DNA from: Bdellovibrio bacteriovorus HD100
Lineage (GTDB): Bacteria > Bdellovibrionota > Bdellovibrionia > Bdellovibrionales > Bdellovibrionaceae
Reading direction: 5' to 3'
DNA: 64,000 nucleotides
Assembly: GCF_000196175.1 (NCBI RefSeq)
Contig: NC_005363.1
Location: 2,790,001 to 2,854,000 of the forward strand
Below the pieces are notes generated by a model. It was not told the origin of the DNA, made no database searches, and saw nothing but the letters and a program-made list of their open reading frames with translations. Positions 7,452 to 59,787 of the stretch are shown piece by piece (position 1 is the first letter of the stretch; the number at the start of each line of letters is the position of its first letter). The translations under genes were made by a program, and so were the position numbers.

Positions 7452-7465
7452 AAAGGACCGTAAAA

Positions 7466-7771: not shown

Positions 7772-7772
7772 T

Positions 7773-7979
7773 ATGAGATGCAATGTCGCCCTGTGGGACC
7801 GCATTCTAAGATTTCTGTTCGGCGTGGGTTTGACCGCTTACGCTGTGGCAGGCGGTCCTTTCTGGGCGTACATTGGGGTCTATGGTCTGATCACGGCCGC
7901 TTGGGGCTTGTGTCCCGTCTATGCTTTCTTTAGAATCAGAACTCTGAAAGATTATCACCGCCCGATCAACGAAGAATAG
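7773..7979 (+). CDS. DUF2892 (YgaP-like) small inner-membrane protein
   Basis: 68 residues with MRCNVALWDRILRF at the start, two transmembrane helices (about 11-28 and 31-50) and a final GLCPVYAFFRIRT with the conserved Cys-Pro. This is the DUF2892 pattern, known as the membrane half of YgaP. No rhodanese domain is attached. Its ATG is one base beyond the glutaredoxin stop, so translation is coupled. A membrane partner for the redox or iron-sulfur pair upstream is a reasonable guess only. Confidence 0.85.
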   Translation: MRCNVALWDRILRFLFGVGLTAYAVAGGPFWAYIGVYGLITAAWGLCPVYAFFRIRTLKDYHRPINEE

Positions 7980-7990
7980 GATTGTAGCAC

Positions 7991-9376: not shown

Positions 9377-9437
9377 ACCCACCCTAGGACCTGCACCCAT
9401 GGCTCTTTCCCGTCTGCACTGATAGACTGAAAGGGCT

Positions 9438-21746: not shown

Positions 21747-22247
21747 ATGAAAACAAAACTTATTCTTTCCGTGTTTTTGTTTGTGGGTATGGCGGCGACT
21801 TCAGCACAGGCCTGCAACGCCCCGATTTCATGTGTGATCAAAACTTATCTCGGTAACTATGTCACTGCCGTCGGTGGTGGTGGGCGCATTACCGACGTCA
21901 TTCACACCGATGCGACCAAGGTGGGCTCGTGGGAGCGCTTTACCCTGGTGGATTCGTGCGATGGCAGCTCTGTTATCAACTATGGAATCAAAACGTCCAA
22001 AGGCTATTACCTGACAGCGGTTGGAGGAGGCGGTCGCATCACTGATGTAATCCATTCCGACGCCACACAATTGCAGGCTTGGGAAAAGTTCAAGCTGATC
22101 TCATTGGGGTATGGAGCCTATGCGATTCAAACCATCTCGGGTCACTATGTGACAGCCGTGGGTGGTGGCGGACGAATCACCGACACAATACACACCGATG
22201 CCACCCAAATTAGAAACTGGGAAAAATTCCGCTTTATCTGCCAATAA
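21747..22247 (+). CDS. Secreted triple-repeat protein, beta-trefoil/fascin-like
   Basis: 166 residues. Signal peptide 1-22 (ending AQA), then a disulfide-sized CNAPISC, then three near-identical repeats of about 45 residues, each built as G-Y/H-Y-V/L-TAVGGGGRITD-x-IH-x-DAT then W-E-(K/R)-F. Three such units with a conserved core are what a beta-trefoil (fascin, actin-crosslinking or ricin-B-like) needs. It has no other domain. Likely a secreted carbohydrate- or protein-binding lectin-like protein. The next secreted gene starts 12 bp downstream, so the two are probably exported together. Confidence 0.8.
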   Translation: MKTKLILSVFLFVGMAATSAQACNAPISCVIKTYLGNYVTAVGGGGRITDVIHTDATKVGSWERFTLVDSCDGSSVINYGIKTSKGYYLTAVGGGGRITDVIHSDATQLQAWEKFKLISLGYGAYAIQTISGHYVTAVGGGGRITDTIHTDATQIRNWEKFRFICQ

Positions 22248-22259
22248 CGGAGCACCAGC

Positions 22260-23558
22260 ATGAAGTTGATTTTGATATTGATCACAATCGCCCTTCTCGG
22301 CTCACCGGGACAGGCGGCTGTCTGGACCGACACCAACCAATGGTCGGCAGAATGGGAAAACCAATACTCGGCCTGGGTGAAAAGTGAGTGGAACAGATAC
22401 TTCTTTTCACGCAGGCTTTTGCCCAACGGACAGGCCAATCCCTACTATGGCCTGCGCGTGGATTGCGCCGACGCTGTTTATTCCATGCGCTTGATCTTTG
22501 CGTATGAACACCGGCTGCCTTTTGTCATTAAGGATCCGACTTATTCCAGTTCGCGGATCTCAAACAAAATGAGCCGCTGGGACCGGCTGCGCGAAATCGA
22601 ACGCGTGCGCAGCTTCCTGCTTTATGTGCATGAAACCACCAGCACTCGGTCTTTGCCCGGGGACACCTATCCAGTTGCCATCAGTCGCAAGACGATCCGC
22701 TCTGGCGGGATTCTTGCGACCACCGCGGTCAACCACCACTCTTGGACCGTCAAAGAGATTCTGCCCGTCGGAGTTCCCTATCTTGTTTACAACTCGGTGG
22801 TAGGGTCCCACTCTGGATTCACAATGCAGGAAAGAAAGTCCTGGCCCAATGCCAACTGGGTCTTTGAAGGGAACTACAGTTCATCCAGCGGGGCGGGATT
22901 CCGCGCCTGGCGTCCGATTGCAAGCCTGAACCGACCGGTATGGGAAGTTCCGGGTTACAGCACCGAACAGTTCCAGATTTCATTGCAAAAATGGACGAAG
23001 ACTCTGCAGTCCCGTCTGGCCACCCAGCAAGAGGGTGACACCGAAATGGTCAGCCGCCTGGTTGACAACGTCTGCGTGGGCTTTAAAGACCGGGTTTCCT
23101 ATGTCAACGAAGCCCTGTCTTACAAACGCCAATACCCTTCTTGCATGTCGTATGAGGCCTTTGACATTTACTCCTCCCCCAGCCGGGATGAACGCATTTT
23201 CGATGATCTGATGCTGCTTAGACGCTCGTACAAGGAAATCCTGCAGCGCAATTCCGGCAGAGATCTGACATCTGAACAAAAGGACCAACTGGCAAAGATC
23301 TTTCCTTATATAAATCAAAGCCCCGCCAGCGAAGCCCGCCAGATGCCCGCTCAGAACATCACCGAAGATTCCGTCTGTGTGGTGAACTATCTTGCCAGTC
23401 GCAGTATGGATATGGCCGAATTCAAACGCCGGCTGTTTTTAGGCTGGCTTTCGAACAACCCCAATGAGCGCGGTGAATACCGCTGGGGCGTGCTGCGAGG
23501 CCCGTCGGATCACGCACGCTACTGTCCGTCCTGGGGTGGCTGGTCCCCGAGCCTGTGA
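22260..23558 (+). CDS. Secreted protein, possible NlpC/P60-like cysteine peptidase
   Basis: 432 residues with a clear signal peptide (1-19, ending QAA). A Cys69 in YYGLRVDCADAVY at the head of a helix and His159-His160 in GGILATTAVNHHSWTVKEI are spaced like the Cys...His pair of NlpC/P60 peptidases (DCSGF ... HVGIY). That is pattern reading by eye, so the family call is tentative. The C-terminal 230 residues have further Cys and no known domain. Co-transcribed with the beta-trefoil protein; together they might form a secreted wall-acting or prey-acting pair. Confidence 0.6.
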   Translation: MKLILILITIALLGSPGQAAVWTDTNQWSAEWENQYSAWVKSEWNRYFFSRRLLPNGQANPYYGLRVDCADAVYSMRLIFAYEHRLPFVIKDPTYSSSRISNKMSRWDRLREIERVRSFLLYVHETTSTRSLPGDTYPVAISRKTIRSGGILATTAVNHHSWTVKEILPVGVPYLVYNSVVGSHSGFTMQERKSWPNANWVFEGNYSSSSGAGFRAWRPIASLNRPVWEVPGYSTEQFQISLQKWTKTLQSRLATQQEGDTEMVSRLVDNVCVGFKDRVSYVNEALSYKRQYPSCMSYEAFDIYSSPSRDERIFDDLMLLRRSYKEILQRNSGRDLTSEQKDQLAKIFPYINQSPASEARQMPAQNITEDSVCVVNYLASRSMDMAEFKRRLFLGWLSNNPNERGEYRWGVLRGPSDHARYCPSWGGWSPSL

Positions 23559-28137: not shown

Positions 28138-28221
28138 TTTCGAACCCCTTTCACTATTGTGATTTTTCGTTGTTAAGTTTTCCTGCTTCTTTTTTGCTCC
28201 CACAGGAGCATGTATTCACAT

Positions 28222-43986: not shown

Positions 43987-45504
43987 ATGAAAAACTTTTA
44001 CCAAGACGGCCCCCAGCTTTCGAACACCTTCCGCTCCGATGAAGCTCTTCAGAAGATCCTGAAGTCCCTGTTACCTGCTGACGCCCAGAAAGTGGCACTT
44101 CCTCACCTTGAACACCTGGGTGAACGAGCTGTCACCGACATGCTGACTTGGGCCCAAGAAGCTGAATCCCAGCCGCCGGTTCACGTGCCTTTTGACCCAT
44201 GGGGTCGAAGAATCGATGACATCAAGACGTCGCACGGCTGGAAGGCCCTGGAAAAAGTCGCGGCGGAAGAAGGCATTGTAGCCACCGCTTATGACCGACG
44301 CTTTGGCGCCGCCTCTCGCGTATATCAAATGGCACTGCTGTATCTTTATTCTCCAAGCTCGGCGATCTTTTCTTGCCCGCTGGCGATGACCGATGGAGCC
44401 GCCCGTGCGCTGGAGCTTTACGCTGACGCCGATTTAAAAGCCCGTGTCCTGCCTCATCTGCTGTCCCGTGATCCCAAAACCTTTTGGACTGCGGGCCAAT
44501 GGATGACAGAAAGAACCGGCGGTTCTGATGTCAGTGGCACTTCCACCGATGCGCACCCCTTCACCGGCACCAGCGAGTTTGGCGCGACCCATTCCCTGCA
44601 TGGGACCAAGTGGTTTACTTCGGCGACAACGTCACAGATGGCGCTGACTCTGGCTCGTCCTGACGGGGCGGCCCCTGGGTCCCGCGGTTTAAGTTTGTTC
44701 TTCCTGGAGCTTCGCAATGACAAAGGCGAACTGAATCATATTCAGATTCACCGCCTAAAAGACAAGCTGGGCACCAAGGCCCTGCCAACGGCGGAACTGA
44801 GCCTGCAGGGAACACCGGCCCGCATGATCGGCGGCGTGGGCGAGGGTGTGAAACGCATAGCCAGCGTTTTAAATATCACCCGTATCTACAATTCCATCTG
44901 CGCTGTCGGTCACATACGACGCGCACTGGATCTGGCTCAGGATTACTCCGGAAAACGCCAGGCCTTTGGCAAACTGCTGAAAGACCACCCCCTGCACAAA
45001 TCAACCTTGGATTCGCTGGAAGCAGACTTCCGCAAATGCATCGCTTTTAGCTTCTTTGTGGCAAATCTTCTGGGACAAGAAGAAGTCGGCGAAGCCTCCG
45101 CCTCTGAAAAAATTCTGCTGCGGGTCCTGACACCGATTCTGAAACTTTATACCGCCAAAAAGTCCATTCATATTTCCAGTGAGGTCGTCGAGATGTTCGG
45201 CGGCGCAGGTTATGTGGAAGACACCGGCATTCCCCGCCTGCTGCGTGATGCTCAGGTTTTCTCTATCTGGGAAGGCACCACCAACGTGCTGTCTTTGGAC
45301 ATGCTGCGCGCCTTTGAAAAAGATCAGGCCGGCCAGATTCTGGAGCAGTTCCTGGTTCTGAATGAGGCGGGCTCTGAAGAGCTGGTTCGCCTGCAAAAGC
45401 TTCTGACCCTGAGTGGGGAACAAAAAGAGCAACATGCCCGGGAAATCGCGTTCCTGATCGGCAACGCCGTGGCCCGTATCGCTATGAAGAAGTATTCTTT
45501 ATAG
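43987..45504 (+). CDS. Acyl-CoA dehydrogenase, AidB-like
   Basis: 505 residues, longer than classic ACADs (380-400) and like AidB and its relatives. FAD/substrate motifs: WTAGQWMTERTGGSDVSGT near 165, HGTKWFTSATT near 207, and the C-terminal FGGAGYVEDTGIPRLLRDAQ and IWEGTTNVLSLDML, typical of AidB/ACAD C-terminal helices. It oxidises an acyl-CoA or, as in AidB, protects against alkylation; the choice is open. Single gene, then the unusual secreted cluster on the opposite strand. Confidence 0.9.
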   Translation: MKNFYQDGPQLSNTFRSDEALQKILKSLLPADAQKVALPHLEHLGERAVTDMLTWAQEAESQPPVHVPFDPWGRRIDDIKTSHGWKALEKVAAEEGIVATAYDRRFGAASRVYQMALLYLYSPSSAIFSCPLAMTDGAARALELYADADLKARVLPHLLSRDPKTFWTAGQWMTERTGGSDVSGTSTDAHPFTGTSEFGATHSLHGTKWFTSATTSQMALTLARPDGAAPGSRGLSLFFLELRNDKGELNHIQIHRLKDKLGTKALPTAELSLQGTPARMIGGVGEGVKRIASVLNITRIYNSICAVGHIRRALDLAQDYSGKRQAFGKLLKDHPLHKSTLDSLEADFRKCIAFSFFVANLLGQEEVGEASASEKILLRVLTPILKLYTAKKSIHISSEVVEMFGGAGYVEDTGIPRLLRDAQVFSIWEGTTNVLSLDMLRAFEKDQAGQILEQFLVLNEAGSEELVRLQKLLTLSGEQKEQHAREIAFLIGNAVARIAMKKYSL

Positions 45505-45531: not shown

Positions 45532-46410
45532 TTAAGGGCAGCTTCCTTGTTTGCACACGCGGATCTTCCCAGTGAAATTGCCACTGGAGTGCTTTGGATC
45601 TCGCTTTAGCTTTGCACCACTTTTTTCGCGGAACTTGAATTCAAAAACACAAAATCTTGGAACCTGCGAGCTGTCCTGATTTAAAATCAGCTCTTCCTTT
45701 ACAAAGCGAACAGCATCACCACTATTTGCCCCGGCGCCATAAAACAGGGTTTCATAGCTGCTGTCATCTTCAACACGTCCTGAGGGAGGGGCGGTGTCGC
45801 TTTTCTTCCGGGGTTGAGTATGATTGCCACGGTCACGTTGGTCGCAGACATACGCGAAGCTGACTTCATCCAGGGCCCTGCCATAGTTTGATCCCGCCAG
45901 GGAAACATCCAGACGGTACTTTCCTTCGGACAAGTCCTGTACCTGCTCATCCTTGCTGGTTTTTTGCTTCAGCAATTCTTCCGGGCCCGCGTAACAGAAA
46001 GTCACGGCATACTCGGCCCCCAGGGACTCACTTCCCAACGCGATATCAATATTGCGAAGCTGGTTGCCAAAAGAGTCTGTGGACGGAACAAGGCTGTCCC
46101 ACTCGGGACCTCCTGCCACGCTTTGAACTTTGCCATTTTTGGTCTCTGCCACCAGCAGATCCCCATGATTTGATTTGCTACGACAGACACAGGCAGCATC
46201 CCCAGGCTTGATGTTTTCAGGATGGCAGACTTCCCCTGTGGAAAGGCTGAAGCACTCCTGCTCGCTGCCCGTTGAAACATGTCGAATACGGGCGTTACAG
46301 GCATAAAGCTGCTCGCCGGTTACACTGTCCACCACAGTCTGAATGTCCGTGGTGGTCCCTGATGCGGAAATAACGATGAAAACACTGAATAAAAACACCA
46401 GGAGCTTCAT
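45532..46410 (-). CDS. Exported Cys-rich protein, unknown (cluster gene 7)
   Basis: 292 residues, signal peptide 1-18. The mature part has the pattern YACNARIRHVS, then C...C.C (ECFSLSTGEVCHPE; ACVCRSK), then a segment NIDIALGSESLGAEYAVTFCYAG. The same sequence order (PCNAGL ... CVCTTS ... LGSELYNAKYFVDICYRG) occurs in the 369-aa protein of this cluster (48044-49153), so they are probably distant paralogues. No known family. Starts 3 bp after the stop of the 530-aa gene and is last in the run. AAAGGTAAGAC precedes its ATG. Confidence 0.75.
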   Translation of the reverse strand: MKLLVFLFSVFIVISASGTTTDIQTVVDSVTGEQLYACNARIRHVSTGSEQECFSLSTGEVCHPENIKPGDAACVCRSKSNHGDLLVAETKNGKVQSVAGGPEWDSLVPSTDSFGNQLRNIDIALGSESLGAEYAVTFCYAGPEELLKQKTSKDEQVQDLSEGKYRLDVSLAGSNYGRALDEVSFAYVCDQRDRGNHTQPRKKSDTAPPSGRVEDDSSYETLFYGAGANSGDAVRFVKEELILNQDSSQVPRFCVFEFKFREKSGAKLKRDPKHSSGNFTGKIRVCKQGSCP

Positions 46411-46413
46411 GTC

Positions 46414-48006
46414 TTACCTTTCACAGCGCAGACTTGGGAAGTCCCCTGACTGCATAGGATAACTTTTAAAGACCGGCGAATTCTTCTGCATCCGGACATC
46501 TGTCAGCTCAACATTTCCACCCGCAGGCTCCATGGTGGCCGTGAATTCCAGGACCAAACGCTGATGAAACTTACTTTTCCCCAGGCGCATGCAATTTGCG
46601 CCATCCGCGCAGGCACGGTCGTAATAAGGCGGCCAGACGGTCGAGGCGATAAGCCCTTCCAGACCCTCCATGGTTTGGGACAGACTGACAGTCTGATTGT
46701 TGCTGTGAAGACCGCCCATTCCTGCAAACGTCGGAATGATGCCCAAATCTCCCAATGTGGAGATGGCAGGAATGACATCCACACCGACGGTGGCGCCTTC
46801 AGTGTCAAACAGACGCACCAGCATCTGCTTTAGACCGTTCAAATAAATCGCATAGTCGTCCGTCGGATCCTGAAATGTCGCCACCAGACGATACTTGGCA
46901 CCAGCTTGGAAAAGGCGATCCGGAATACGATAACTGACACCCTTCATCACGCCTTGCCAATTCGGAGGCACCAGCCCCCCGTCCCACCATTCTTCAATCA
47001 GCTCTGGGCGGGCTGATTCACGCAGGCGGAACAACTCAACCTGGCCCACGAAAGGTTGCATAAAGTTGGAGGAACTGGAACAGGTGACACCCGCACATGA
47101 ACGGTCCGCTATATTTGACACCAGGAAGGAAAGATCAATCTGAGTCCTGTCTTCGCGGGAGCGAATAAACACGGGTCCCCAGTCACCATCCACCGTATAA
47201 CTGGTCGTGAAACGAGGCACCCCAGCGCCAAAGTCTTCGGACAAGGGCAAAAGCCCGGGTTTAGGAGTGATACTAATATGAACAGGACGGCTGCCGACGT
47301 GGCGAACATCCGTTGTGGTCCCGGAATCATCTCCGGTCACAAGAGTGTCGAGGTTGGCATAGATGTCCTGAGCCTCAATGCCCATGGCATCAAGATAGGA
47401 TGGATCCAGACATTCTTTTTTTAGAAGTGGCTGGACCGCATAGTCATTTTGCGCACGAATTTTAACAAAGCACATGCTTCCACGCATCAGTACAGCACTG
47501 CTATCGATACGGGTGACTTCGCAGAAAGGTTGCTTTTCATTTACAACCAAAGCACCACCACGGGTGTCGGCGACACGCAGGTCTATACAGCTGCGCAGGA
47601 ATTTATACTGTCGCTCAAAGTTATCTTTGGTCACTTGCGGCTTGAATGAAGAAATAGATCTGGAATTTTGCAACTGACAAGAGCCTGGATCATAGGAATT
47701 GAAGATATAACTGTCTTTGACTTCGGAAGATGCGCCCCATTGGACAGCCCCCAGGGACAACATCAGAAAACGACCCGCTTCTTCCTGGCACTTCACCACG
47801 CGAGAACCCGTGATCGTTTCTTGTCCTTTATAATCCCCCCAAGAGTTCGTCTCGGGGGAAATATTGATTTGAATTTTGTCTTCATTTTCAACGATGCAGG
47901 CAGCACGGCCCCAGGGCCCGGCCAGCATTATTGTAAGACCCAAAAGGAGAGACAGGTGTCCCCTGCTTCCATGGCGTTTTGACGCTTTAACTTCCACATT
48001 CAACAT
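46414..48006 (-). CDS. Exported protein, unknown, 530 aa (cluster gene 6)
   Basis: The N-terminus has a long positively charged stretch (KASKRHGSRGHLSL) and then a hydrophobic signal segment (LLLGLTIMLAGPWGRAA), so export is likely with cleavage near 36. The mature protein has many Cys (VKCQEEAG, SCIDLR, PFCEVTR, MCFVKIR, KECLDPS, RACADGANCMRLG) and beta-rich repeats. No family recognised. The ribosome site AAGGGAGATAGGT lies before ATG 48006. 37 bp after the 369-aa gene, 3 bp before the 292-aa gene. Confidence 0.72.
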   Translation of the reverse strand: MLNVEVKASKRHGSRGHLSLLLGLTIMLAGPWGRAACIVENEDKIQINISPETNSWGDYKGQETITGSRVVKCQEEAGRFLMLSLGAVQWGASSEVKDSYIFNSYDPGSCQLQNSRSISSFKPQVTKDNFERQYKFLRSCIDLRVADTRGGALVVNEKQPFCEVTRIDSSAVLMRGSMCFVKIRAQNDYAVQPLLKKECLDPSYLDAMGIEAQDIYANLDTLVTGDDSGTTTDVRHVGSRPVHISITPKPGLLPLSEDFGAGVPRFTTSYTVDGDWGPVFIRSREDRTQIDLSFLVSNIADRSCAGVTCSSSSNFMQPFVGQVELFRLRESARPELIEEWWDGGLVPPNWQGVMKGVSYRIPDRLFQAGAKYRLVATFQDPTDDYAIYLNGLKQMLVRLFDTEGATVGVDVIPAISTLGDLGIIPTFAGMGGLHSNNQTVSLSQTMEGLEGLIASTVWPPYYDRACADGANCMRLGKSKFHQRLVLEFTATMEPAGGNVELTDVRMQKNSPVFKSYPMQSGDFPSLRCER

Positions 48007-48043
48007 ACCTATCTCCCTTTTTAAATTCAGAACCTATGACTAA

Positions 48044-49153
48044 TTAGTGACAGTCTTTGCAACCGTTTTCCAAATGAGCCATTTCAACTTTTGTGTGAGT
48101 GCAGATATCTGCACCATGCTTTTGCCATTTTCTGTGTTTGCCGTATTTGCTCAAACCGTCTTTTTCCTCAAACACATAACGGATTTTGCAGTACTTCGCC
48201 GCGCCACCTTTGTAGTCCAGCTCTTTGTATTGCTTGTCGATGATCTTCTTGAATGTAGAAGAATTTGCCGTCCAGGAATCAGACTCATACTCGTAGTCTG
48301 TGTACGTTGGGTTGAAGTTGGTCAGGAAATAGTCGTTAAACTGTGGCACGTAGTGCAGTTTATCGTCTTCATCTTTACAGTAACCTTCTTCACAAGATCT
48401 GTCTTGGGTATTACAGATGATGTAAGCCTTCATTTTCAGATCAGCAAGATCGCTGTAGCCATCGCCTTGAACTTTCAGACCGTAGTCTGTCACAGAAGCT
48501 TCAGCAAGAAGGTTCCATTTGGTTTCGAAGTGGCTGTAGTCGATCTGAGATCCACGATAGCAGATATCAACGAAGTACTTGGCATTGTAAAGCTCACTGC
48601 CCAGGTTGAAGGAAAGCTTTTCCAAAACCTTGTGGTAAGCTGTTTTTTCGTCAAACAACTTGTTGAAAGTCGTGCCAGAGCCGGAAACCACATCTGTGTG
48701 TGGATCCACGGAATCACCCCAAGGTCTCCAGTTCGCATGGAAATAGTTTCCATTTTTGCGGCCTTTGGACGTCGTGCACACGCAGTTGTTTTTATCATCT
48801 TCCTTGCCGCCACCTGGACCACCATGGCCAGGTCCACCGTGACCACCGGACCAAGTCATGAATTCAGGAAGTACAGATTTTGGTTTTGGACCGTGATGAT
48901 CATCCTTTTCCTCTTCACCACCTTTACAATCCAAACCCACGCAATCTCCAGAGCACTTCTCATGAGTGATTGCAGTGTAACACGCGACTTTGTCGCCTTC
49001 ATGTGGATCATGAGTGGTCAAACCAGCATTACACGGATAGATACTAGGACCTGAGCTGTTGACTCGGAAGCTGTAAGTAACCTGGATGGCGTTTGCCTGC
49101 ATTGCCATCAGGGTGACGGCTGTCGTAGCCATCGCTGTGAACAAACGTTTCAT
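48044..49153 (-). CDS. Exported Cys/His-rich protein, unknown, 369 aa (cluster gene 5)
   Basis: Signal peptide 1-22 (ending ANA). N-terminal Cys pattern PCNAGL...CYTAITHEKCSGDCVGLDC, then an acidic-histidine-glycine insert (EEEKDDHHGPKP, then GGHGGPGHGGPGGGK) that looks like a metal-binding or flexible loop, then CVCTTS and YFVDICYRG. The C-terminus ends NGCKDCH. It resembles the 292-aa protein at 45532 outside the insert. AAGGAGACAAC lies before ATG 49153. Likely extracytoplasmic with disulfides; no family recognised. Confidence 0.75.
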   Translation of the reverse strand: MKRLFTAMATTAVTLMAMQANAIQVTYSFRVNSSGPSIYPCNAGLTTHDPHEGDKVACYTAITHEKCSGDCVGLDCKGGEEEKDDHHGPKPKSVLPEFMTWSGGHGGPGHGGPGGGKEDDKNNCVCTTSKGRKNGNYFHANWRPWGDSVDPHTDVVSGSGTTFNKLFDEKTAYHKVLEKLSFNLGSELYNAKYFVDICYRGSQIDYSHFETKWNLLAEASVTDYGLKVQGDGYSDLADLKMKAYIICNTQDRSCEEGYCKDEDDKLHYVPQFNDYFLTNFNPTYTDYEYESDSWTANSSTFKKIIDKQYKELDYKGGAAKYCKIRYVFEEKDGLSKYGKHRKWQKHGADICTHTKVEMAHLENGCKDCH

Positions 49154-49199
49154 GTTGTCTCCTTCCCATTTAAGGGTGTTGTTGTAATAAACTGAAAAA

Positions 49200-49802
49200 T
49201 CAGTTCAGTTTAAAAATAATAGGTGCACTCAAAGGACGATTTCCGATGCCAGGCTGACGAGGCTGAACCTCGAAAGCGGAGGTCTGTCCGGCATTGTTGC
49301 GGCAAAGCACATAGCTAAGCGCCATCGGCTGATGAACTTCATCCAGTTTCACGGCCAGCAAGGCTGACTCGGCCGCGTCCCCACAGAAGGCGCCAAGCTC
49401 TTTGGCAAAAGCTTCACCACCAACGGGCGTGTAATAGTTAAAAACACTCTTAATATCCAAAAGAACATACCTCTCAGTTCCCAGATACTTCACAAGAACC
49501 TGCCGGTCGTTCAGCTCTTGAGAGATCGCATAGGTCTTGGAAATCTCTGTGAACAACTGCCGCAGCAGCGGAGAGGTCGTACCCGCGCAGTTGCGACAGT
49601 AAGGCTCTGGACGCTGACAGGCCGTCGGGTTCTGGCACAAGCTTTGGCAGTGTGACGACGTAGCGGTTTCACAGCTGATTTTCGTCATCTTCACATACTG
49701 ACCGCCGGGCTGTTTTACGTAGCCACTTTCCACCAGGAAGGCCGATGCCGGCACAGTCAGAAGCACTATCGAAGTCAATAGAAGAACCGTCCACTTTTTC
49801 AC
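49200..49802 (-). CDS. Exported Cys-rich protein, unknown, 200 aa (cluster gene 4)
   Basis: Starts with GTG 49802, which shares its G with the TAG stop of the 908-aa gene (TAGTG), so translation is coupled. Signal peptide 1-21 (ending ASA). A dense cysteine cluster SCETATSSHCQSLCQNPTACQRPEPYCRNC (in pieces of four to five Cys) follows, then a helical domain and a final beta stretch with YVLCRN. The first 60 mature residues look like a small disulfide knot. No family recognised. Confidence 0.75.
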   Translation of the reverse strand: MKKWTVLLLTSIVLLTVPASAFLVESGYVKQPGGQYVKMTKISCETATSSHCQSLCQNPTACQRPEPYCRNCAGTTSPLLRQLFTEISKTYAISQELNDRQVLVKYLGTERYVLLDIKSVFNYYTPVGGEAFAKELGAFCGDAAESALLAVKLDEVHQPMALSYVLCRNNAGQTSAFEVQPRQPGIGNRPLSAPIIFKLN

Positions 49803-52528
49803 TAGAAGCCCCAGAAGTTATGGCCGATGGTTTGACGGCAATCTTTGCTCATGCCGTACATGCCCCCGAACTTTTCATATGTTTTGAACTTTTTCCCATC
49901 TTCAGAACAGCTGTACTTCACACGCACTTTGCCATTGCAATAGTCCGACTGAATGATCACTGCCGATGAAGGTGTCGTGTTACCGTTGGCATCGGTCAGC
50001 TCTTCCATTTCCAGATGTTTCACTTTCTTCCCAGTGTATCTCTCGAAATAGTCAGCGGCCTTCGCAGCACAGATGTTCTGATAGCAGCCAACACCCGCCG
50101 CCAGTTGATCCACGCAATGATCTGGAATGCCACCATAGCGCTTGTAGGTCTCGACCACCCTGTTTACATCCACTTCCTGCAGTCGAGGGATATTGACTTT
50201 GTCTTTCTTGGCCGTGATATAGCGATGGATACTGCGGAAAAGATAAACGCCCAATTTGATCGGATTCAGAGGCATGCCACCACTGGATACGGAGGCACCG
50301 CCTGCCACGCCCACGAAGTTGATAGAACAGCCTCCGCAATAGGACTTGCTTACTGGAGGAGTGCTGACCATATCCCCTGGAGAACGACCCACGACATCGC
50401 CACCATCGCGAATTTTGCAATAGTTCACGGAAATTCCGTTAAAGGCATAGAAGCTAAAGTCCTTGGCACTGTTGGGAGCAATGGACACCGCACAGGGGGC
50501 TCCCATCAAAGGACCGAAGTCCGCCAGCAGAGCGACCTCCATTTTTTCCTTTTGAATCTTCGGATCAAACTTCACCGCACCGTTTTTAATAAGCGCATTC
50601 AAACTGGTCACTTTGGGTGGTCGGAAGTCCACATCAATGTACAAAGGCAGCGCGTTCCAACCGAACAGCGCGGTGCTGGCCAGATCAGCCATCAGGCGCT
50701 TGTTAGCCCGACGTGTCTGAAACCAAGGATCATAAACCTTACAAGCCTTCAAATCAGCATAGGGATTGAACACATCCGGAGTCGACACTGTGGAATTGAC
50801 AGGCAAAAACGCATCCGCGTATTTTGCAACTGCGTACAGGTCGACCATAGATTTTATAAGCTTGCGCGAACAATCGATGGCCGAAGCGCAAATTGAATTG
50901 CCCGGCTCACTGACACGGGTTGCATCCCACACCAGCAAGGGCGCACCAAACTTCATCGGCTGCACATCCGCAGCGGCAATCGTCGCAGGAGGCGGAAGCT
51001 GAAGTAATTCCCGAGCCCACGCGTGGAAGCCATTTTTATTAACAGTGTAACCGGTGGCATTCCAGACTTTTTCACGCTCAAGGCTGTCACAGAAAGAAAC
51101 GATGTTTTCAGCGACTTTATCAAAGTAACGAGTTGCATCGGCCAACTGGACCTGCGAGCCCTGGAATGAGCGCTGCATGACCTCCAGCTGCTGAACCTTG
51201 TCGATCCCGGTTTTCATAAAGTCCAGTCGCTGATCACCTGCCAAGCGAGCCTCGGTGCAAAGATAGTAAAGCTCATCACGATGCTGGTTGGAATAGGTCT
51301 TGGCAAAGGCCAGTGGACGCACAAACTCTGTCAGCTCCGCCGGAGTCATGGCCCCGCCAATGATATTTAGGAACTGGATGGCACTCTGAACACGGTTCTT
51401 CATCGAACCCCGCGCAGTCACATAGTTCTTGCGGAAGTTTTCAACCCAGTCAGACGCATCATCATAACTGCGGGTTCCCAGGAAATCGTCATTTACATCC
51501 CGGGGTCCACGATTCAACACGTCGTCTTCGGGACCTTTCGGAACTTCTTTACGATGTTCAGTTTCATCGCCATCGGGCCGAGCCAGTTCACGGATGCTGT
51601 TCATCGAAAGAGTGGCAGCATCACACTCGGGCTTTTCAATACTTTTACACCCGTTGGGGATCATCATGATGGATTCTTCAAGAGCAATGGAACGGAACAT
51701 CTGGCCGTACTCAGGCGCCACTTGAAGTGGGATATTGGAATATCTCCAGGCAAAGGAAAGATAGATTTTCACACTGTTCCAGAAATCGAACCCTACGCGG
51801 CCGAATTCAACGGACCGAGGAATTTTCAAATCAAGCTGAATGATGGAATTACGCGAATCCAGCGTCGCATCAGCACTTTCACAGTCCGTGATGTACTTGT
51901 CCCTGGCAATAGCGGCCTGAGCCACAGACAACAAGACTGACTTGTCGACCTCAACAGAGTTCAACTGTTCCTGAAGTGCTGAAAATCTTTTGACATAAAA
52001 GCAGGCCACACGATCGACCTTTTTCATGGACATGAAGTGACTGCCATTGAACTTATCAAGACTTTCCCAGCGCAGACCGGCCCCTTCCGAGTTGTCCCAG
52101 ATTCTGGAAAGATAACCGTTCAGCTCGGGGCAATAGGTTTTGTTCTGGCATTTTTCGGCAATGGCGTTATATCCGGTCAAGGTGGACGTCTTAAGGTTGG
52201 TCGGAAGCAGCGGAAGCTGCCCGGCCATTAGCTTATTCATGATCACTTTGGTCAGGCGGGTCACGGCAATACGAAACTGCTGCATGCCCTCTGCACTCAT
52301 TGCTTCCGCATTCGAGCCAATATTTTTACCCAGGGAATACACAAGCTTCCCGGCATTGTATCCGTCCACCACAATAAAGGCGGACTCTGTGGGAACTTCA
52401 GAGTCTACGGCACATTGCGCACGATTGGTAATTCTCAACTTGTTCAGCTGAACCGGAGTTGACGTCGCCTGCGCATCTGCGCCCGATGCCATCATCCAGA
52501 TCACCGCCATCAATATCACTTTGCCCAT
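49802..52528 (-). CDS. Large exported protein, unknown, 908 aa (cluster gene 3)
   Basis: ATG 52528 is favoured: GAAGGAAGCAGGG lies directly upstream, and a signal peptide (1-20, ending DAQA) follows. The protein has about 20 Cys spread along its length (AQCAVD, EKCQNKTYCPE, YCGGCSINF, DHCVDQ, VGCYQNICAAK, KVRVKYSCSEDGK). There is a helical middle region (about 330-480) with many charged residues and a Gly-rich patch near 760 (GVAGGASVSSGGMPLNP). I recognise no family; the size suggests a structural or secretion-scaffold component. 27-bp gap from the 175-aa gene. Confidence 0.75.
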   Translation of the reverse strand: MGKVILMAVIWMMASGADAQATSTPVQLNKLRITNRAQCAVDSEVPTESAFIVVDGYNAGKLVYSLGKNIGSNAEAMSAEGMQQFRIAVTRLTKVIMNKLMAGQLPLLPTNLKTSTLTGYNAIAEKCQNKTYCPELNGYLSRIWDNSEGAGLRWESLDKFNGSHFMSMKKVDRVACFYVKRFSALQEQLNSVEVDKSVLLSVAQAAIARDKYITDCESADATLDSRNSIIQLDLKIPRSVEFGRVGFDFWNSVKIYLSFAWRYSNIPLQVAPEYGQMFRSIALEESIMMIPNGCKSIEKPECDAATLSMNSIRELARPDGDETEHRKEVPKGPEDDVLNRGPRDVNDDFLGTRSYDDASDWVENFRKNYVTARGSMKNRVQSAIQFLNIIGGAMTPAELTEFVRPLAFAKTYSNQHRDELYYLCTEARLAGDQRLDFMKTGIDKVQQLEVMQRSFQGSQVQLADATRYFDKVAENIVSFCDSLEREKVWNATGYTVNKNGFHAWARELLQLPPPATIAAADVQPMKFGAPLLVWDATRVSEPGNSICASAIDCSRKLIKSMVDLYAVAKYADAFLPVNSTVSTPDVFNPYADLKACKVYDPWFQTRRANKRLMADLASTALFGWNALPLYIDVDFRPPKVTSLNALIKNGAVKFDPKIQKEKMEVALLADFGPLMGAPCAVSIAPNSAKDFSFYAFNGISVNYCKIRDGGDVVGRSPGDMVSTPPVSKSYCGGCSINFVGVAGGASVSSGGMPLNPIKLGVYLFRSIHRYITAKKDKVNIPRLQEVDVNRVVETYKRYGGIPDHCVDQLAAGVGCYQNICAAKAADYFERYTGKKVKHLEMEELTDANGNTTPSSAVIIQSDYCNGKVRVKYSCSEDGKKFKTYEKFGGMYGMSKDCRQTIGHNFWGF

Positions 52529-52555
52529 AGACCCTGCTTCCTTCATCTAAAATCT

Positions 52556-53083
52556 CTAGTTAAGACCACTGCTGCACGTGCTGACTTTGTTCAGCATCGT
52601 TGTATAGAACAACACGACCGTCTGATCAGCCGGAGAGAAGTTTCTTTTCACGGAGCCGTCAGAGTTCACCATGTTGTACAGATAAGTATTCACGAAACGA
52701 TAGACTGCCGGAGTCACCAGAAGATTGGAGCGGCATTTGTAGTTCTTGTAAGTCACGGTGATGCTGGCATAACCGTTGTTGTCATTGCCGTTGTCATAGT
52801 CACCGATATAGATCGTGTCACCATCACCACCGTTGGCACGGCCATAACCAACCTGGAACTGCACAGTCCATCCCGAACCACTGCTGTCCTGACCTACGAT
52901 TTTACAAAGATTGCCAGAGCAGGCGATTGCCATTTCATTCTCAATCTTTTTCTGCAACTCAGCTTCAGAGTACTGAGGCAGCGGTCGTGGATCAAACTCA
53001 CCCGTGCCATCATCAAATTCATTCGCAGTCGCCTGGAAGGCTGTTGCCACCAATACCGCTGCAAGAAGCGCCTTGAGTTTCAT
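52556..53083 (-). CDS. Exported protein, unknown, 175 aa (cluster gene 2)
   Basis: Signal peptide 1-20 (ending ATA). Acidic start of the mature chain (NEFDDGTGEFDPRPLPQYSE), a probable disulfide in CSGNLCKIV, and a Gly/Asp/Asn-rich strand (GRANGGDGDTIYIGDYDNGNDN) reminiscent of a calcium-type or surface repeat. Two more Cys (CRSNLL, STCSSGLN). No family. First gene of the downstream run, transcribed after the terminator of the collagen-like gene, so a promoter should lie in 53084-53242. Confidence 0.72.
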   Translation of the reverse strand: MKLKALLAAVLVATAFQATANEFDDGTGEFDPRPLPQYSEAELQKKIENEMAIACSGNLCKIVGQDSSGSGWTVQFQVGYGRANGGDGDTIYIGDYDNGNDNNGYASITVTYKNYKCRSNLLVTPAVYRFVNTYLYNMVNSDGSVKRNFSPADQTVVLFYTTMLNKVSTCSSGLN

Positions 53084-53297: not shown

Positions 53298-56200
53298 TTA
53301 GAAAGTGACTGGCATCATGTGAGGAATTTTCCCAGCGTCGGAATTTCCGATGATCATACCACGCACTTTGGAGTGACGAGTGGCTGGCTGGAATGGAAGT
53401 CCTTTGTAGTTCGGAGATTGAACTGCCGGCACCCAACGGCCGGAACCATTCACCATCCATTCGCGGAAGTACATGTTGATGTGAGTACCTTCAACCAAGT
53501 AGTCGATTGTGGTGCCCGCACCCGCAATGGCCATCGCCGCACGGAATGTGAACAGATTCTCTGCCATGCCTTCACCGAAGCTGCCGTATGCAGCCGCAAA
53601 GGCCTTAGGATCGGAGTTCATCGTTTTGTACATGGTTTTCAAAGCATAGTACATTTTGCTTGCTGCTTCGGCCGTTTTCTTGGTCGTGACGTTCACGCAA
53701 GAGCCAGGAAGACGTGCCCCACCATCCATCAAACACAGATCGTAAGGATCGTTGCGCTCGTTGAAGTAAGAGTAAATCTGATCCGTGGACTTGTCGATGA
53801 AGGCGTCCTGACTCATGGTCTGCGCCGCTCTCATCAGTCTCATGGTGTTTTCGTCACTGAAGTTCACGTTGAATTCAATGCCTGTATAACCAAGATCTGC
53901 ATCTGGAACGCCCACCATCAGGGAATCCAGGCCGGTCTTTTTAACCAGAGCATAGATACCGGATCTTAGACGTTTGCCATTGGAGCTTTCATGCTTGAAG
54001 GCATAGGAATAAGTACCGAACATGCTTTCCATGCGCGCCTTGCTGTCCCAGTTTTGAACAGAGTACTTGGCACCATAGAACATGAAGTCTTTTTCTTTAT
54101 GCTTGAACCAGAAGCGGCTGTCTTCGGAATCAGAGTAGATACCGTAGTGAACAACAGCGGTGTTGCGGTCCAAATGCATTTCAGATGTGGTGTAAGAGTT
54201 GATCTTACCTTTGCTGTACGTTTTGTCCCAAATGATTGGCAAAGCCAAAGATTTGCTGACAACACGGCCCGTCGCCACGGATCTGAATGTTTCAACCTTA
54301 ACAACTGGTGCACGCTCAACCAAGTTTCTTGGTTTGTCGGCTGACAATGTCTCTGACGCCAAAACGTTCCCGCGGATCACGTCTTCGTAGGCTTTACGGC
54401 CGGTGTCGGTCGTCAAGTCAAACAGGAACGAGAATCCGTCGTCTGAAGATCTGAACTCACTCAAGCTCAGGGTCAGGATGGATACGTTGGTGAACATAGA
54501 GAAGCTGTTCAGCTTACCTTTGGACATTTTTACGTAAGCACGGTCAGAGCCGACTTTTTCCACGTAAGTTTCCCAAGTACCGTTCGCCAGCTTCGCAACC
54601 CCTGCGCCCACCGGACCGAAGCCCGCGCCTGCAGAGAAGATGATTCCACCGTGACCGATGTAAGTGATGCTGTCACCCGGATCCCAAGTGTCAAGATCGG
54701 CAGCATCCTTAGGAACAGACCAGCGACCACCCATATTACGGGCTTTGTCCAGAGTGCTCACATAGCGAACAGACTCTGTCTCTTTACCCATGATTGGCAG
54801 AACGCCGACATAACCCCAGAAGTGCTGACGCAAACCTGTGGCATTGTCGAACCAGAAGCGCACTTGCGCACCCAGCCCCACTTCGATCGCGCCGTAAACG
54901 GTTTTTTGGAAACCATCACGATAATCGCCATAGATCAGAGTATCGGAAGTTGGACGGTAGTCGTACTTCACAATAGAGCTTGGCTGCACGTTTCTGAAGT
55001 GTGGAGTCAGATTCACGATGTACTGACCATAATCGAAGCTCAGGTGGAACAGAGGCTTCAATTTGGCTCTGAGTTTGTTTTTCTCTTCTTCTTTGAATCC
55101 AGTGGAGCTGGAGGACGTCGCAGTGGACTCTCCGGTCGTGGACGTAGAAGTAGAGGATGATGAAGAACTGGAGGACGACGTCACTTCACCTGTTGTGGAC
55201 GTCGTCACAGAAGTGGACGTTGCCGTCGTCACTGTGGTTGACGTGTCTGGATTGTAAGTGGTTGCAGTTGAAGTCGGTCCGTATGTACTAGTGCTTGGAC
55301 CATAAGTCGTCGCAGTAGTGTATCCAGTTGAATAGCCGGTCGATGTATAACCAGTTGATGTATAACCAGTTGACGTATAACCGGTCGTGTAGCCCGTTGA
55401 GTAACCAGTCGTATAGCCCGTAGTATATCCTGTGCTATAGCCGGTGGTGCTACCTTTATGGCCATTGTGCCCATTGTGGCCGTTATTTCCGTTGTTTCCG
55501 TTGTTTCCGTTGTTTCCGTTGTTTCCGTTGTTTCCGTTGTTTCCGTTGTTTCCGTTGTTCCCGTTGTTCCCGTTATTCCCGTTATTTCCGTTATTTCCGT
55601 TATTTCCGTTGTTTCCGTTGTTCCCGTTATTTCCGTTATTTCCGTTATTTCCGTTATTTCCGTTGTTTCCGTTGTTCCCGTTATTTCCGTTATTTCCGTT
55701 ATTCCCGTTGTTCCCGTTGTTCCCGTTATTCCCGTTATTCCCGTTATTCCCGTTATTCCCGTTATTCCCGTTATTTCCGTTATTTCCGTTATTCCCGTTA
55801 TTCCCGTTATTCCCGTTATTTCCGTTATTTCCGTAAGAACCATTACTGCCTTTGGTTCCGTTCGTGCCGTAATTACCGTTATTACCGTTGTTACCGTTAT
55901 TACCGTTATTTACGTTATTACCGTTATTACCGTTATTTACGTTATTACCGTTATTACCGTTGTTGCCATTATTTACATTGTTGCCGTTATTACCGTTGTT
56001 GCCATTATTTACATTGTTGCCGTTGTTGCCGTTGTTACCAAGAACCCCGTTGTTTCCCAGTACAGCATTATTGCCGTTGTTGCCATTGTTGCCATTATTA
56101 CCGTTGTTACCATTATTGCCATTATTGCCGTTATTACCTAGAACCCCGTTACTACCGATAATTCCGTTATTACCGTTGTTACCGTTGTTGCCATTGTTGC

Positions 56201-56390
56201 CATTATTACCGTTGTTACCAATGGCCTGAATAACCTTGGAGTTAAGATTTACGAATCCTCCGCGGCCCCCAACTTCAACTACTTGTGTGTCTTTCTTGAC
56301 GGTATTATTTGCCGGTTTATTCGCAAACGCTACGTTTGCAATCATCGACATACCCGCCAGGAAAATCACTTTCCCTGACATCCCACCCAT
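53298..56390 (-). CDS. Secreted collagen-like (Gly-Asn-Asn)n protein, 1030 aa (cluster gene 1)
   Basis: ATG 56390 follows AAGGAGAACGTA; signal peptide 1-23 (ending AFA). Residues about 59-311 are almost pure Gly-X-X tripeptides with X = Asn, about 84 units; Gly is kept in phase, with four Val and one Ala substitutions at Gly positions. Residues about 312-365 are [14 protein letters not shown] repeats; about 366-435 are Ser/Thr-rich (TSTSTTGE, a run of nine Ser). The last 595 residues are a globular part rich in Tyr/Gly/Phe ([19 protein letters not shown]) with only two Cys (DLCLMDG, SCVNV). No proline in the GNN domain, so a true collagen triple helix or a polyproline-II bundle are both possible. 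Own terminator, so a separate transcript. Confidence 0.88.
55300..55455 (-). repeat. TGY/STG repeat region (Thr-Gly-Tyr linker)
   Basis: Repeated codons for T-G-Y-S/T form a run of about a dozen copies between the GNN domain and the Ser/Thr-rich linker; copies differ mainly by synonymous changes. Confidence 0.8.
55457..56216 (-). repeat. Full Gly-X-X coding region with degenerate flank
   Basis: The perfect 9-bp array is flanked on its 5' coding side (55833-56216) by a diverged region with units for NNV, VLG, SNG, TNG and TKG. Four GTA (Val) codons there lie 27, 36 and 36 bp apart, i.e. a 12-residue supra-repeat [12 protein letters not shown]. On the 3' coding side HNG units (55457-55481) close the domain. 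Confidence 0.85.
55482..55832 (-). repeat. Perfect 9-bp tandem array, 39 units, inside the GNN gene
   Basis: On the plus strand the unit is GTT[G/A]TT[T/C]CC, repeated 39 times without a gap or frame change. Only two positions vary. Higher-order order is visible: blocks such as C-A-A-A-A-B (54 bp) recur. Each unit codes Asn-Asn-Gly on the minus strand, so copy-number changes keep the frame. Confidence 0.95.
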
Positions 56391-56706
56391 TACGTTCTCC
56401 TTTTTTGCAGCCTTCGCCCGCGACAATGGAAAACAATCCACCGCTGCAGACAATGACCGGTTTAATTTTTCTTCGAGCTGACAGAATTTTTAGAACGCAG
56501 AAAATATTTTTGACACTTAAATAAATCATAATTTCAGCCATTTAATTGACACTCCAGAAATGTGTTATCCAACACTTCAATTTCCGTACTGCCTCGGGCT
56601 TATAAGCGGATAACTTGCAAAAGCGTAAAGAACTATTCCAAGAATTCTATGTTAAGAACCATATCCAATAATTTTTTAAGGAAACTTCACCCAGAGGAGA
56701 AAAGCG
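56391..56706. other. 316-bp divergent intergenic region
   Basis: Between the GNN gene (minus) and the first DUF5819-like gene (plus). It holds the strong ribosome sites of both genes at its ends and AT-rich DNA in 56460-56660. TTGACA occurs twice on the plus strand (about 56509 and 56546), but neither has a well-spaced -10. No ORF or RNA gene is convincing. It must contain the promoters of both directions. Confidence 0.6.
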
Positions 56707-57321
56707 ATGAAACTGAAAGAAAAGCTGAAGTTTGCGTTCAATCAGTCAAAAAAAATCATCATAATGACCTTCTTTACTCTGAATGTCGGCATCATGGTCG
56801 TCGATGGACTGCCGGACCAGAGCAAACTTGGCGAAAAATTCATGTCACTTGTGAAGCGTTATCAGGCCTTGGTGATGCTTTATCAGCCCTGGGCGATGTT
56901 TGCCCCGAACCCGATGAATACCAACGCATTCATAGAAGCAGACCTTAAGTTTGACGACGGCTCAACGGGCGTCTGGAAAATGCCACGTCCTCTGATTATT
57001 AAGGGCCCCCGCAAAGTTCTGACCGGAGACCGATATCGGCTGCTGGGACAAGAAACTCTGCTGCCCAATCAAAATGAGCTGGTGTGGTTTGATGTTTCAC
57101 GATTTGTCACCCGGGAAGTAATGCTTGCAGAAAGCGCCGGAAAAAACCGCATCCTTAAAGAGATCACTTTTAAAAGATATCAAAGCCGAGTCACGCCTCC
57201 ACCAGAAGCCCCCATGATCCCGCATGGAACTCTTAGCAACAAATACGATATTGAAACAATCTTCGTCTATACACCGACATTTGAAAGGATCCGCCATGAA
57301 GCTACGAACAATCACCAATAG
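56707..57321 (+). CDS. DUF5819-like HTTM partner protein, copy 1
   Basis: 204 residues, ATG 56707 behind CAGAGGAG. N-terminal basic stretch and one transmembrane helix (about 17-33), then the conserved YQPWAMFAPNPMNTNAFIE, ELVWFDVSRFVTREV and a C-terminal IPHGTLSNKYDIETIFVY. The QPWxMFAPNP block is typical of the small membrane-anchored proteins encoded next to HTTM genes. Overlaps the HTTM gene by 26 bases. Paralogue of the gene at 59212. Confidence 0.82.
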   Translation: MKLKEKLKFAFNQSKKIIIMTFFTLNVGIMVVDGLPDQSKLGEKFMSLVKRYQALVMLYQPWAMFAPNPMNTNAFIEADLKFDDGSTGVWKMPRPLIIKGPRKVLTGDRYRLLGQETLLPNQNELVWFDVSRFVTREVMLAESAGKNRILKEITFKRYQSRVTPPPEAPMIPHGTLSNKYDIETIFVYTPTFERIRHEATNNHQ

Positions 57322-58234
57322 CATTGACGAGTTTCTTTTCAAACCGCAGCCCGTCTACAGCGTCGCCCTTTTGCGAATTGGCCTGGGCCTGCTTTTGTTG
57401 TTCAACTGGCTGATGATCTATACGGACCTGGAGATTCTCTTCGGACCTGATGGGATTGTTTCACTGCAGACTGCACAACAATACGGAAACCCACTGCGCT
57501 TTTCCTTATTTGACTACATGCCGAACACGTACAAAGTCACAGCCACACTTGCCTTCGTGCATCTGCTGGCGGTCCTAGCTTTGACCTTCGGCGCGTGGAC
57601 AAGGACGTCCATTCTTATAGCCTTTATCACGTTAATTTCTTTTCATCACCGCAATGGCTTTATCATGAACAGCGCTGACTCTGTTTTAAGGGTTTTTCTG
57701 TTTCTGCTCTTGTTCACGCCGTGTGCCGACGCCTTTTCTGTGGACCGCTGGAGACTCCGCCTGAAAGGAAAGGCACCTGAAGTTCCTGCCGAAAAGGCCC
57801 CTTGGGCCTTGCGGATGATTCAGATTCAGTTCTGTATCATCTATATCGCCACGGTTCTTTTCAAAATCAAAGGGGATCGCTGGGTGGACGGCACCGCGGT
57901 CTATATCGCCACCCGTCTAGACGACTTTGTCCGGTTCGAACTGCCCCTTCTGAACAGCATGGTTCTGATCAAATGCATTACTTGGTCAACTTTGTTGGTT
58001 GAGTTCGCCCTGGGAACTCTGGTGTGGGTGAAAGAGCTGCGCTATTGGGTCCTTCTTGCCGGCGTCGGTCTGCATTTGGGAATTGAGTTCACCATGTCCA
58101 TTCCGGTTTTTGAATGGGCCATGATCGTAGTGATGATCAGTATGGTAGACTCCCGGGATATCGAACGGTGGATCGAAAGACTTCAAGAACACCGAAAAGC
58201 CACAACAAACCTTCCAGAGTCAGCAGTTTCATAG
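57296..58234 (+). CDS. HTTM / vitamin-K-dependent gamma-carboxylase-like membrane protein, copy 1
   Basis: 312 residues from ATG 57296 (AAAGGATCC). Seven to eight membrane helices. ISFHHRNGFIMNSADSVLR and CIIYIATVLFKIKGDRWVDG align with the HTTM catalytic region; the Lys before DRWVDG corresponds in position to the active-site Lys of GGCX (visual alignment). HTTM proteins carboxylate Glu or act on other carbon-acid substrates; the substrate here is unknown. It is coupled to the DUF5819-like gene and faces a second copy of the same module. Confidence 0.85.
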   Translation: MKLRTITNSIDEFLFKPQPVYSVALLRIGLGLLLLFNWLMIYTDLEILFGPDGIVSLQTAQQYGNPLRFSLFDYMPNTYKVTATLAFVHLLAVLALTFGAWTRTSILIAFITLISFHHRNGFIMNSADSVLRVFLFLLLFTPCADAFSVDRWRLRLKGKAPEVPAEKAPWALRMIQIQFCIIYIATVLFKIKGDRWVDGTAVYIATRLDDFVRFELPLLNSMVLIKCITWSTLLVEFALGTLVWVKELRYWVLLAGVGLHLGIEFTMSIPVFEWAMIVVMISMVDSRDIERWIERLQEHRKATTNLPESAVS

Positions 58235-58280: not shown

Positions 58281-59234
58281 TTACTTGGCTTTAGCCATTA
58301 TCTGCGGATGCCAGGACAGCATACTTGAAAACAACTTTCCCTCTTTCGCCAGAGTCAGCCAATCTTTCAAATCCTTCGGGTCCACCATGCAAATCATTGT
58401 GATAATCATGATCCATTCAAACATCGGGATATTCATCGAAAGCTCAATACCCAAATGCAGACCTATTCCCGCCAGAATCACCCAGTAACGCAGCTCCCGA
58501 ATCCAGATCAGCGTCCCCAATGCCAACTCCACTGCCAGGGTCGACCAGGTCAAGAATTTGATGACCGCAAGATTATTTAAAAGTCCCAACGGCATTCGCA
58601 CAAACTCGTCAAGACGAGTGGCAGTATAAACGGCTGTCCCGTCCGCCCACAGCGGACCCTTCATCTTGAACATCACAGTCGCGATATAGATGATGCTGAA
58701 TTGAATCTGCATTAGACGCAGACCCCAGGGGGCCTTTTCCAATGGCTCTGCCGGCGCCAGGCCCTGCCGCACCTTCCACCAGCGATCCACCGACAGCCAG
58801 TCCCCACAAGGGGTCAGGAACAAAAGAAATAGGAAGTTGCGAATCACGATATCCGAACTGTTCAAAACAAAGACATTGCGGTTGTGGAACGAAATCAGGG
58901 TGAAAAATGCCACAGCAATTGAGGTGCGGGTAAAGATCCCCAGCAGGACCCCCATCACCGCCCCCAGATGAACCAGTGCCAGCAACGCCGGCACCCGCGG
59001 ATCTGGCGGCAGCAGTTCAAACAGACTGAAGCGGAACGCCCCGCCCATCTTCAAAGAAGTCTCCAAAGAAAAGATGCCCTCCACACCCCAGAACGTGTCC
59101 AGATGGCTCCAAACCATGATCCAATTGATCAACAGAACCACTCCGAACAAAACTCTCAGCAGCGCCACAGTGTGCACGGGCTGGGGTTTAAAAAAGAAGT
59201 CATTCAAACCACTAGTGAGAGTTGCTAGCTTCAT
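58281..59234 (-). CDS. HTTM / gamma-carboxylase-like membrane protein, copy 2
   Basis: 317 residues from ATG 59234 (CGGAGGACC). The same layout as copy 1: MKLATLTSGLNDFFFKPQPVH at the start, FHNRNVFVLNSSD, and IIYIATVMFKMKGPLWADGTAV. Similarity is high through most of the length, lower in the first loop and the tail. Overlaps its DUF5819-like partner by 23 bases, mirroring the plus-strand pair (26 bases). Confidence 0.85.
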   Translation of the reverse strand: MKLATLTSGLNDFFFKPQPVHTVALLRVLFGVVLLINWIMVWSHLDTFWGVEGIFSLETSLKMGGAFRFSLFELLPPDPRVPALLALVHLGAVMGVLLGIFTRTSIAVAFFTLISFHNRNVFVLNSSDIVIRNFLFLLFLTPCGDWLSVDRWWKVRQGLAPAEPLEKAPWGLRLMQIQFSIIYIATVMFKMKGPLWADGTAVYTATRLDEFVRMPLGLLNNLAVIKFLTWSTLAVELALGTLIWIRELRYWVILAGIGLHLGIELSMNIPMFEWIMIITMICMVDPKDLKDWLTLAKEGKLFSSMLSWHPQIMAKAK

Positions 59235-59787
59235 AACGAGGTCCTCCGGTGGGTTTAAAGTGGAATACACTTTCGCTGCTGTAAGCAGTGCTCAGCTGTC
59301 CATGAGGGATAAACACCTGGGTCGGCGGCTGAACGACGTTGGTGTGGCGATAGAAGTAAAGCTGTTCAAATTCGCGCTTGCGACCGAGTTGTTCAAGTTT
59401 GGCCACTTCACGCGCCACATAGCGGGAAAGATCAAACCAAAGCTCTGATTTTTCCATCGGCAACAGATTGTCCTGCTGGTACTTGCGATAGCGTTCACCG
59501 GCGGTGAATCGATCCCAGCTGTCCAGCTGTGACGCCCGCGGGAAGGTCCACTGTTCTGTTGAACCATCTTTGAATGTAATCGTCGCGGTTAAATAAGAAT
59601 TTATCGACGCCGGATTGGGTGCAAACATGCTCCAGGGCTGATCCAGGCCAAAGAAAACCTGATACGGTGAAAGAGCCTGCAGAATGCGATCACCGACAGC
59701 GCTCCGGTCTGGCAAGGCTGACGTGACCACCATCACGATGTGCCCCATAATAAAGGCTGAAATCAGAACTTTCTTGAGTGCCGCCAT
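59212..59787 (-). CDS. DUF5819-like HTTM partner protein, copy 2
   Basis: 191 residues, N-terminal membrane helix (about 6-22), then LDQPWSMFAPNPASINSYL, SELWFDLSRYVAREV and VFIPHGQLSTAYSSESVF, each matching the copy-1 protein. GGGGGGTTCGCC precedes ATG 59787. First gene of the minus-strand pair. Confidence 0.82.
   Translation of the reverse strand: MAALKKVLISAFIMGHIVMVVTSALPDRSAVGDRILQALSPYQVFFGLDQPWSMFAPNPASINSYLTATITFKDGSTEQWTFPRASQLDSWDRFTAGERYRKYQQDNLLPMEKSELWFDLSRYVAREVAKLEQLGRKREFEQLYFYRHTNVVQPPTQVFIPHGQLSTAYSSESVFHFKPTGGPRYEASNSH

Follow-up and report, generated by a model that had tools for sequence, protein, structure and literature searches.

The six genes described here, A–F of Bdellovibrio bacteriovorus HD100, probably encode one exported, disulfide-braced heteromeric extracytoplasmic complex particular to the Bdellovibrionota, with A–E as its core and F as a further member; we arrive at this reading from the joint inheritance of the genes, their export signals as predicted from sequence, the cysteines they keep, the constraint under which they evolve and the occurrence of two copies in the HD100 genome. 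We regard the module as categorically new, because nothing was found that matches it in sequence or clearly in structure, and the open main texts searched do not mention it. It may represent a new class of bacterial extracytoplasmic complex. Bdellovibrio serves as a model for predation and is a candidate for use as a living antibiotic, yet many of its predator genes are nameless; the module offers a bounded target: five core genes, two HD100 copies, conserved cysteines and an exchangeable part.

The six-gene run and its second copy

The run lies in the window, the 64,000-nucleotide stretch of HD100 DNA analyzed here, with the following features:

53083-52556, minus strand: gene A, first of the run, 175 aa, predicted export, 4 conserved cysteines (from the ORF and the family alignment)
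52546-49802, minus strand: gene B, 914 aa, predicted export, 22 cysteines; largest and most conserved core protein, mostly helical by prediction
49802-49200, minus strand: gene C, 200 aa, GTG start, predicted export, 8 conserved cysteines
49153-48044, minus strand: gene D, 369 aa, predicted export, cysteine-rich; in the exchangeable D-E-F block
48006-46414, minus strand: gene E, 530 aa, predicted export, 12 conserved cysteines; predicted tandem Ig-like beta-sandwich, exchangeable block
46410-45532, minus strand: gene F, 292 aa, predicted export; diverged paralogue of D, exchangeable block
53271-53242, minus strand: terminator-like hairpin with a T run, between the GNN gene and A

Lettered in transcription order, the six closely spaced ORFs are separated from A to F by 9, −1 (one base common to B and C), 46, 37 and 3 bases, and their coordinates, strand, order and gaps agree with the initial annotation, which had reported a tight single-strand run with signal peptides on all six products. 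The latter claim likewise stands as far as hydropathy, the sole measure used, can tell: each protein begins with a signal-peptide-like hydrophobic segment, and none has a further transmembrane-like stretch past its N-terminus by the same measure. On inspection, the N-termini of A, C, D and F resemble ordinary signal peptides and not the prepilins of type IV pilus or minor-pilin operons with their short leader and conserved hydrophobic start. The module includes neither a surface anchor nor an outer-membrane barrel nor a dedicated exporter, and no FliA-type promoter was seen by eye upstream of A.

The initial annotation had also placed the GNN gene just upstream of the run, behind a terminator. 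A terminator-like hairpin is indeed found there, in a region where such sites are no more frequent than in shuffled sequence, but apart from HD100 the GNN gene holds this position in no more than the three closest copy-1 relatives and is therefore a neighbor rather than a part of the module. The GNN-repeat protein itself (53298-56453, minus strand; Pfam Collagen) measures 1051, 973 and 941 aa among close species, whereas its alignable part of 599 residues is 98-99% identical, pointing to a repeat tract of changing length. Beyond it, at 56707-58234 (plus strand) and 58281-59787 (minus strand), stand two gene pairs that are related to one another and oppositely oriented; each codes for a small exported-looking protein and a membrane protein that we take to be HTTM/VKGC-like. 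Elsewhere in the window, an exported-looking protein with a BD_b_sandwich domain (PF18820) is encoded at 26845-28203 on the minus strand. The gene adjoining the run on its other side (43987-45504) can be identified as Bd2924, because its product aligns from end to end with PDB chain 6sd8_X ("Probable acyl-CoA dehydrogenase", 505 residues) and B. bacteriovorus Bd2924 has been described as a 505-residue acyl-CoA dehydrogenase (ACAD) related to AidB and ACDH-11 (PMC6851490).

Searched against the HD100 genome at E ≤ 1, B finds itself and a single other relative, 46% identical, at 713.8-716.5 kb. This second B belongs to a full second copy of the module (locus L033, 708-717 kb), in which A, B, C, D, E and F follow in the same order as in copy 1 and are accompanied by a further gene, G (398 aa), and by a 133-aa gene; a weak BLAST link had made the latter a candidate relative of A and was dropped when profiles gave it no support. 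Copy 2 adjoins the RpoE-like sigma gene bd0743, for which a published RT-PCR primer (PMC3464611) falls exactly within the locus, and an FHA-GGDEF gene close by, as expected for dgcB (Bd0742). By profile, the E-family genes of HD100 are confined to these two loci, and the same holds for the D family.

The six genes of the run stood as first described, but F does not constitute a family of its own: as judged from its sequence it is a diverged paralogue of D, since the D profile matches F at E 4e-16 and copy-2 D matches F by blastp at E 1.7e-10. A further D-F profile score was discarded, as the F set contained D sequences.

The cysteine richness on which the initial annotation had remarked is not a chance of composition, because homologues keep the number of cysteines in A (4), B (22), C (8) and E (12); D keeps about ten. 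Across 73 B sequences, cysteine makes up 99-100% of 18 of the 22 cysteine columns and 98% of two more; C826 (85%) and C880 (61%) are less well kept, and the conservation persists at B identities down to ~22%. That A, B, C and E each have an even number, together with the export signals and the conservation, points to disulfides.

Distribution of the module and searches for relatives

Of the 369 genomes of the phylum, 75 carry B, and these represent 30 of the 182 genera; the order has it in 33 of 141 genomes and the genus in 17 of 24. The seven same-genus genomes that do without it argue that the module is not needed for predation in general and that its role depends on niche or prey. Across the 72 B-bearing loci examined, 64, drawn from many genera of the Bdellovibrionota, have A–E together in a span of 5.6-9.2 kb. 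Contig ends cut six of the remaining eight; in another, L105, E is cut at the end of the stretch and A may lie beyond; the last, L037, carries at 7150-9918 an orphan B (54% identical) with none of A, C, D and E in its vicinity; its genome, G010, has two full modules in addition.

The orthologues are hence not scattered independently in related genomes, an outcome that would have spoken against the initial annotation, and the co-occurrence it proposed to look for is pronounced: a D profile scan finds D in 70 of 359 genomes, 68 of which also have B against 14.6 expected (Fisher p 1.8e-62 over the 359 genomes, relatedness ignored). Because the genomes are related, we consider the persistence of gene adjacency the better argument: the complete loci display 19 gene-order forms, sometimes with A-D-E divergent from B-C, and B is followed by C in all 64. 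Together with the second full copy and the conserved cysteines, this co-location, co-occurrence and B-C adjacency support the earlier proposal of putative disulfide-bonded extracytoplasmic parts of one assembly.

Outside the phylum, absence of the module is only suggested, because the scan of ~85,000 species used one short pattern and missed many phylum loci that the profile found. It returned 22 relatives; where the titles name a group, it is Bdellovibrio, Bdellovibrionaceae, Bdellovibrionales, Bacteriovoracaceae or Oligoflexia, and two remain unplaced ("Proteobacteria bacterium" and "bacterium"). Viral contigs and plasmids yielded no B relative.

A seventh gene, G, belongs to many module copies and not to copy 1. 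This Cys/His gene is adjacent in 23 of the 64 complete loci and absent from the other 41, and HD100 has three such genes: one beside copy 2, one at G000:2666066-2667349, and one in the window itself:

22260..23558, plus strand: G-type gene, 432 aa, unlinked to the run and tied to copy 1 only by family

The last directly follows a gene for a 166-aa exported-looking protein with three AVGGGGRITD.IHTDAT repeats (both genes at 21747-23558, plus strand). Twelve G members share an invariant C69, within a DCAD motif, and an invariant H160. Four members match part of DUF4846 (PF16138), the only domain matched (E 1.6e-4 to 6e-3), a likeness that concerns gene G only and whose scores of 17-22 bits fall under the 37-bit cut-off; the HD100 members have no such match, nor was an NlpC/P60 match found for G. 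The invariant Cys and His and the weak DUF4846 matches make it likely, from sequence, that G is a papain-like enzyme.

The verdict of no recognizable family, reached earlier from the letters and translations, withstood database searches: Pfam holds no family for the six proteins or their family members, NCBIfam and PHROGs give nothing above chance for A–F, and PADLOC has no match. When profiles of families A, B, C, D, E and G were compared with solved structures, all matches were at chance level. A clear match to a known pilus or secretion system, named at the outset as a possible refutation, was looked for and did not appear: the usher Pfam model is not among the matches of the six proteins or their family members, and B, as the only large protein, is predicted to be mainly helical. 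For the mating-pair proteins of F-type conjugation, the TraN, TraU and TraH models match no member of the A–E alignments at E up to 0.05-0.1, which leaves room for very remote homology. In the literature, nearly all locus tags (one or two excepted) from Bd2923 to Bd2935 and from Bd0744 to Bd0754 were looked for, and only Bd2924 and Bd0745 are named in the open Bdellovibrio main texts found; those texts contain no published description of the module.

Allelic exchange of D-E-F

Between HD100 and a close species (G009), protein identity falls along the run, from 94% and 93% in A and B to 75% in C, 56% in D, 43% in E and 40% in F, and returns to 93% in the flanking Bd2924. Nucleotide identity is 82-95% in Bd2924, drops to ~50-57% over F and E, and is back at 84% by the C end of D; the edges of the D-E-F mosaic are sharp. 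G009 and a further species, G006, are alike throughout, and in D-E-F it is not HD100 but the more distant G010 that both resemble more. The B tree supports an HD100+G009+G006 clade at 100, whereas the D and E trees reject it (p-AU 1e-83 and 9e-6, respectively, from quick trees and for a clade picked after the identities had been seen). On the simplest reading, D-E-F of HD100 is a foreign-looking allelic block, another allele having been received by the HD100 lineage; phage pressure or neutral recombination could also account for the polymorphism. As a separate observation, G009 and G006 are ~98% identical in and beside D (loci L034/L035; window ~47.9-48.6 kb) but ~86% in the flanks, an indication that the two species exchanged D recently.

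Wherever dN/dS can be computed, all module genes in both copies give values of 0.005-0.10, with no sign of gene-wide positive selection. All are under purifying selection, and both copies look functional.

Proposed assembly and comparison with known systems

We propose that the module proteins would be exported by Sec to the oxidizing periplasm and fold there with disulfides, that B and C (and A) would assemble into a conserved base, and that this base would carry D, F and E as outward, exchangeable subunits facing a variable outside, be it prey, surfaces or phages. G would act as an accessory processing or cross-linking enzyme, and the proteins might cross the outer membrane by type II secretion or in vesicles, or they might not cross it. 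Most likely the complex is displayed beyond the predator's outer membrane and serves to bind prey or surfaces, because close species differ in D-E-F as a block whereas A and B stay conserved; we grant this use about half of the confidence that we place in the complex itself. The lack of an anchor, barrel or exporter in the module, the orphan B of L037 and the want of gene-wide positive selection count against the proposal. Put in full, and still tentatively, the module may be a phylum-specific extracellular machine of five core disulfide-rich families, a predator surface organelle whose prey- or surface-binding D-E-F half is swapped between species, and the exchange would then point to a possible seat of specificity.

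That the complex instead resides in the periplasm of the predator, or is released into that of the prey, and remodels the envelope or the cell wall, G serving as its peptidase or amidase, strikes us as unlikely. The Sec-type signals, the lack of an outer-membrane exporter at the locus and the invariant Cys and His of a G adjacent in over a third of complete loci would fit such a role, yet G is missing from most complete loci, the Pfam searches recognized no enzyme family in A–E, and an allelic exchange limited to D-E-F is more easily explained for exposed parts.

Structure prediction bears on a second alternative, less probable again, in which D, F and E are Ig-like subunits that polymerize by strand exchange on a B/C platform into a pilus- or fiber-like structure, as a derived relative of chaperone-usher systems. 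The beta-rich E model (pLDDT 81, pTM 0.79) predicts tandem Ig-like sandwiches, which define a fold class and not a function; its structural matches, all weak, are led by WxLIP 9i25_C (Z 10.1, rmsd 7.2, 237 residues aligned), followed by pilus chaperones (Z 7-8.3, rmsd 4.6-7.4) and pilin domains (Z about 7), and Foldseek matches to viral proteins were disregarded for their very low TM-scores. D and F, moreover, have a beta-strand-like stretch directly after the signal peptide. Against a fiber, the E values (Z 7-10, rmsd 4-7) lie close to those for unrelated sandwich proteins and within the range of common sandwich matches, no module protein matches an usher or pilin family, and E, unlike pilins, conserves 12 cysteines. 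Should D, E and F nonetheless prove to be fimbrial relatives, the module would become a form of an already known kind. The mostly helical B model is of moderate quality (pLDDT 73, pTM 0.64, 22 sequences), too low for a claim of a new fold; Foldseek finds nothing in the PDB with E<1, and VIA gives a best Z of 6.3 over 74 residues. Least probable is a matrix or coat, in which the secreted proteins build a layer, a plug or a wall like that of a cyst, with disulfides, and perhaps G, providing the cross-links: the many conserved cysteines and the collagen-like GNN neighbor of copy 1 would suit it, but GNN is not kept beside other copies, and five distinct families with one gene each suggest a defined complex over a repeated coat protein.

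Among known systems, the module invites comparison with the chaperone-usher pili (Csu, CFA/I, type 1), whose chaperones and pilin domains share a weak Ig-like resemblance with E, whereas the module has no usher or pilin match, cysteine-rich subunits and a large helical B. The WxL/WxLIP proteins of Enterococcus are likewise Ig-like exported proteins on a bacterial surface and give the weak structural match to E, but the E family has no WxL/WxLIP match in Pfam and no sequence relation was found, the host of the module is Gram-negative, and E carries its 12 conserved cysteines; to our knowledge, nothing like B, A and C is known from WxL loci. Within Bdellovibrio, the Bd2209-2212 and Bd2723-2726 operons (PMC12034629) are similarly duplicated and mostly hypothetical, with one protein of ~900-1000 aa; they differ in including pilin-like proteins, and the HD100 search with B reaches only B and copy 2. 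Finally, the MAT (mosaic adhesive trimeric) fibers of Bdellovibrio (PMC10769870) are also exported, with variable parts thought to face the prey, but these are trimeric with one gene each, whereas the module brings together five to seven unrelated genes in one locus.
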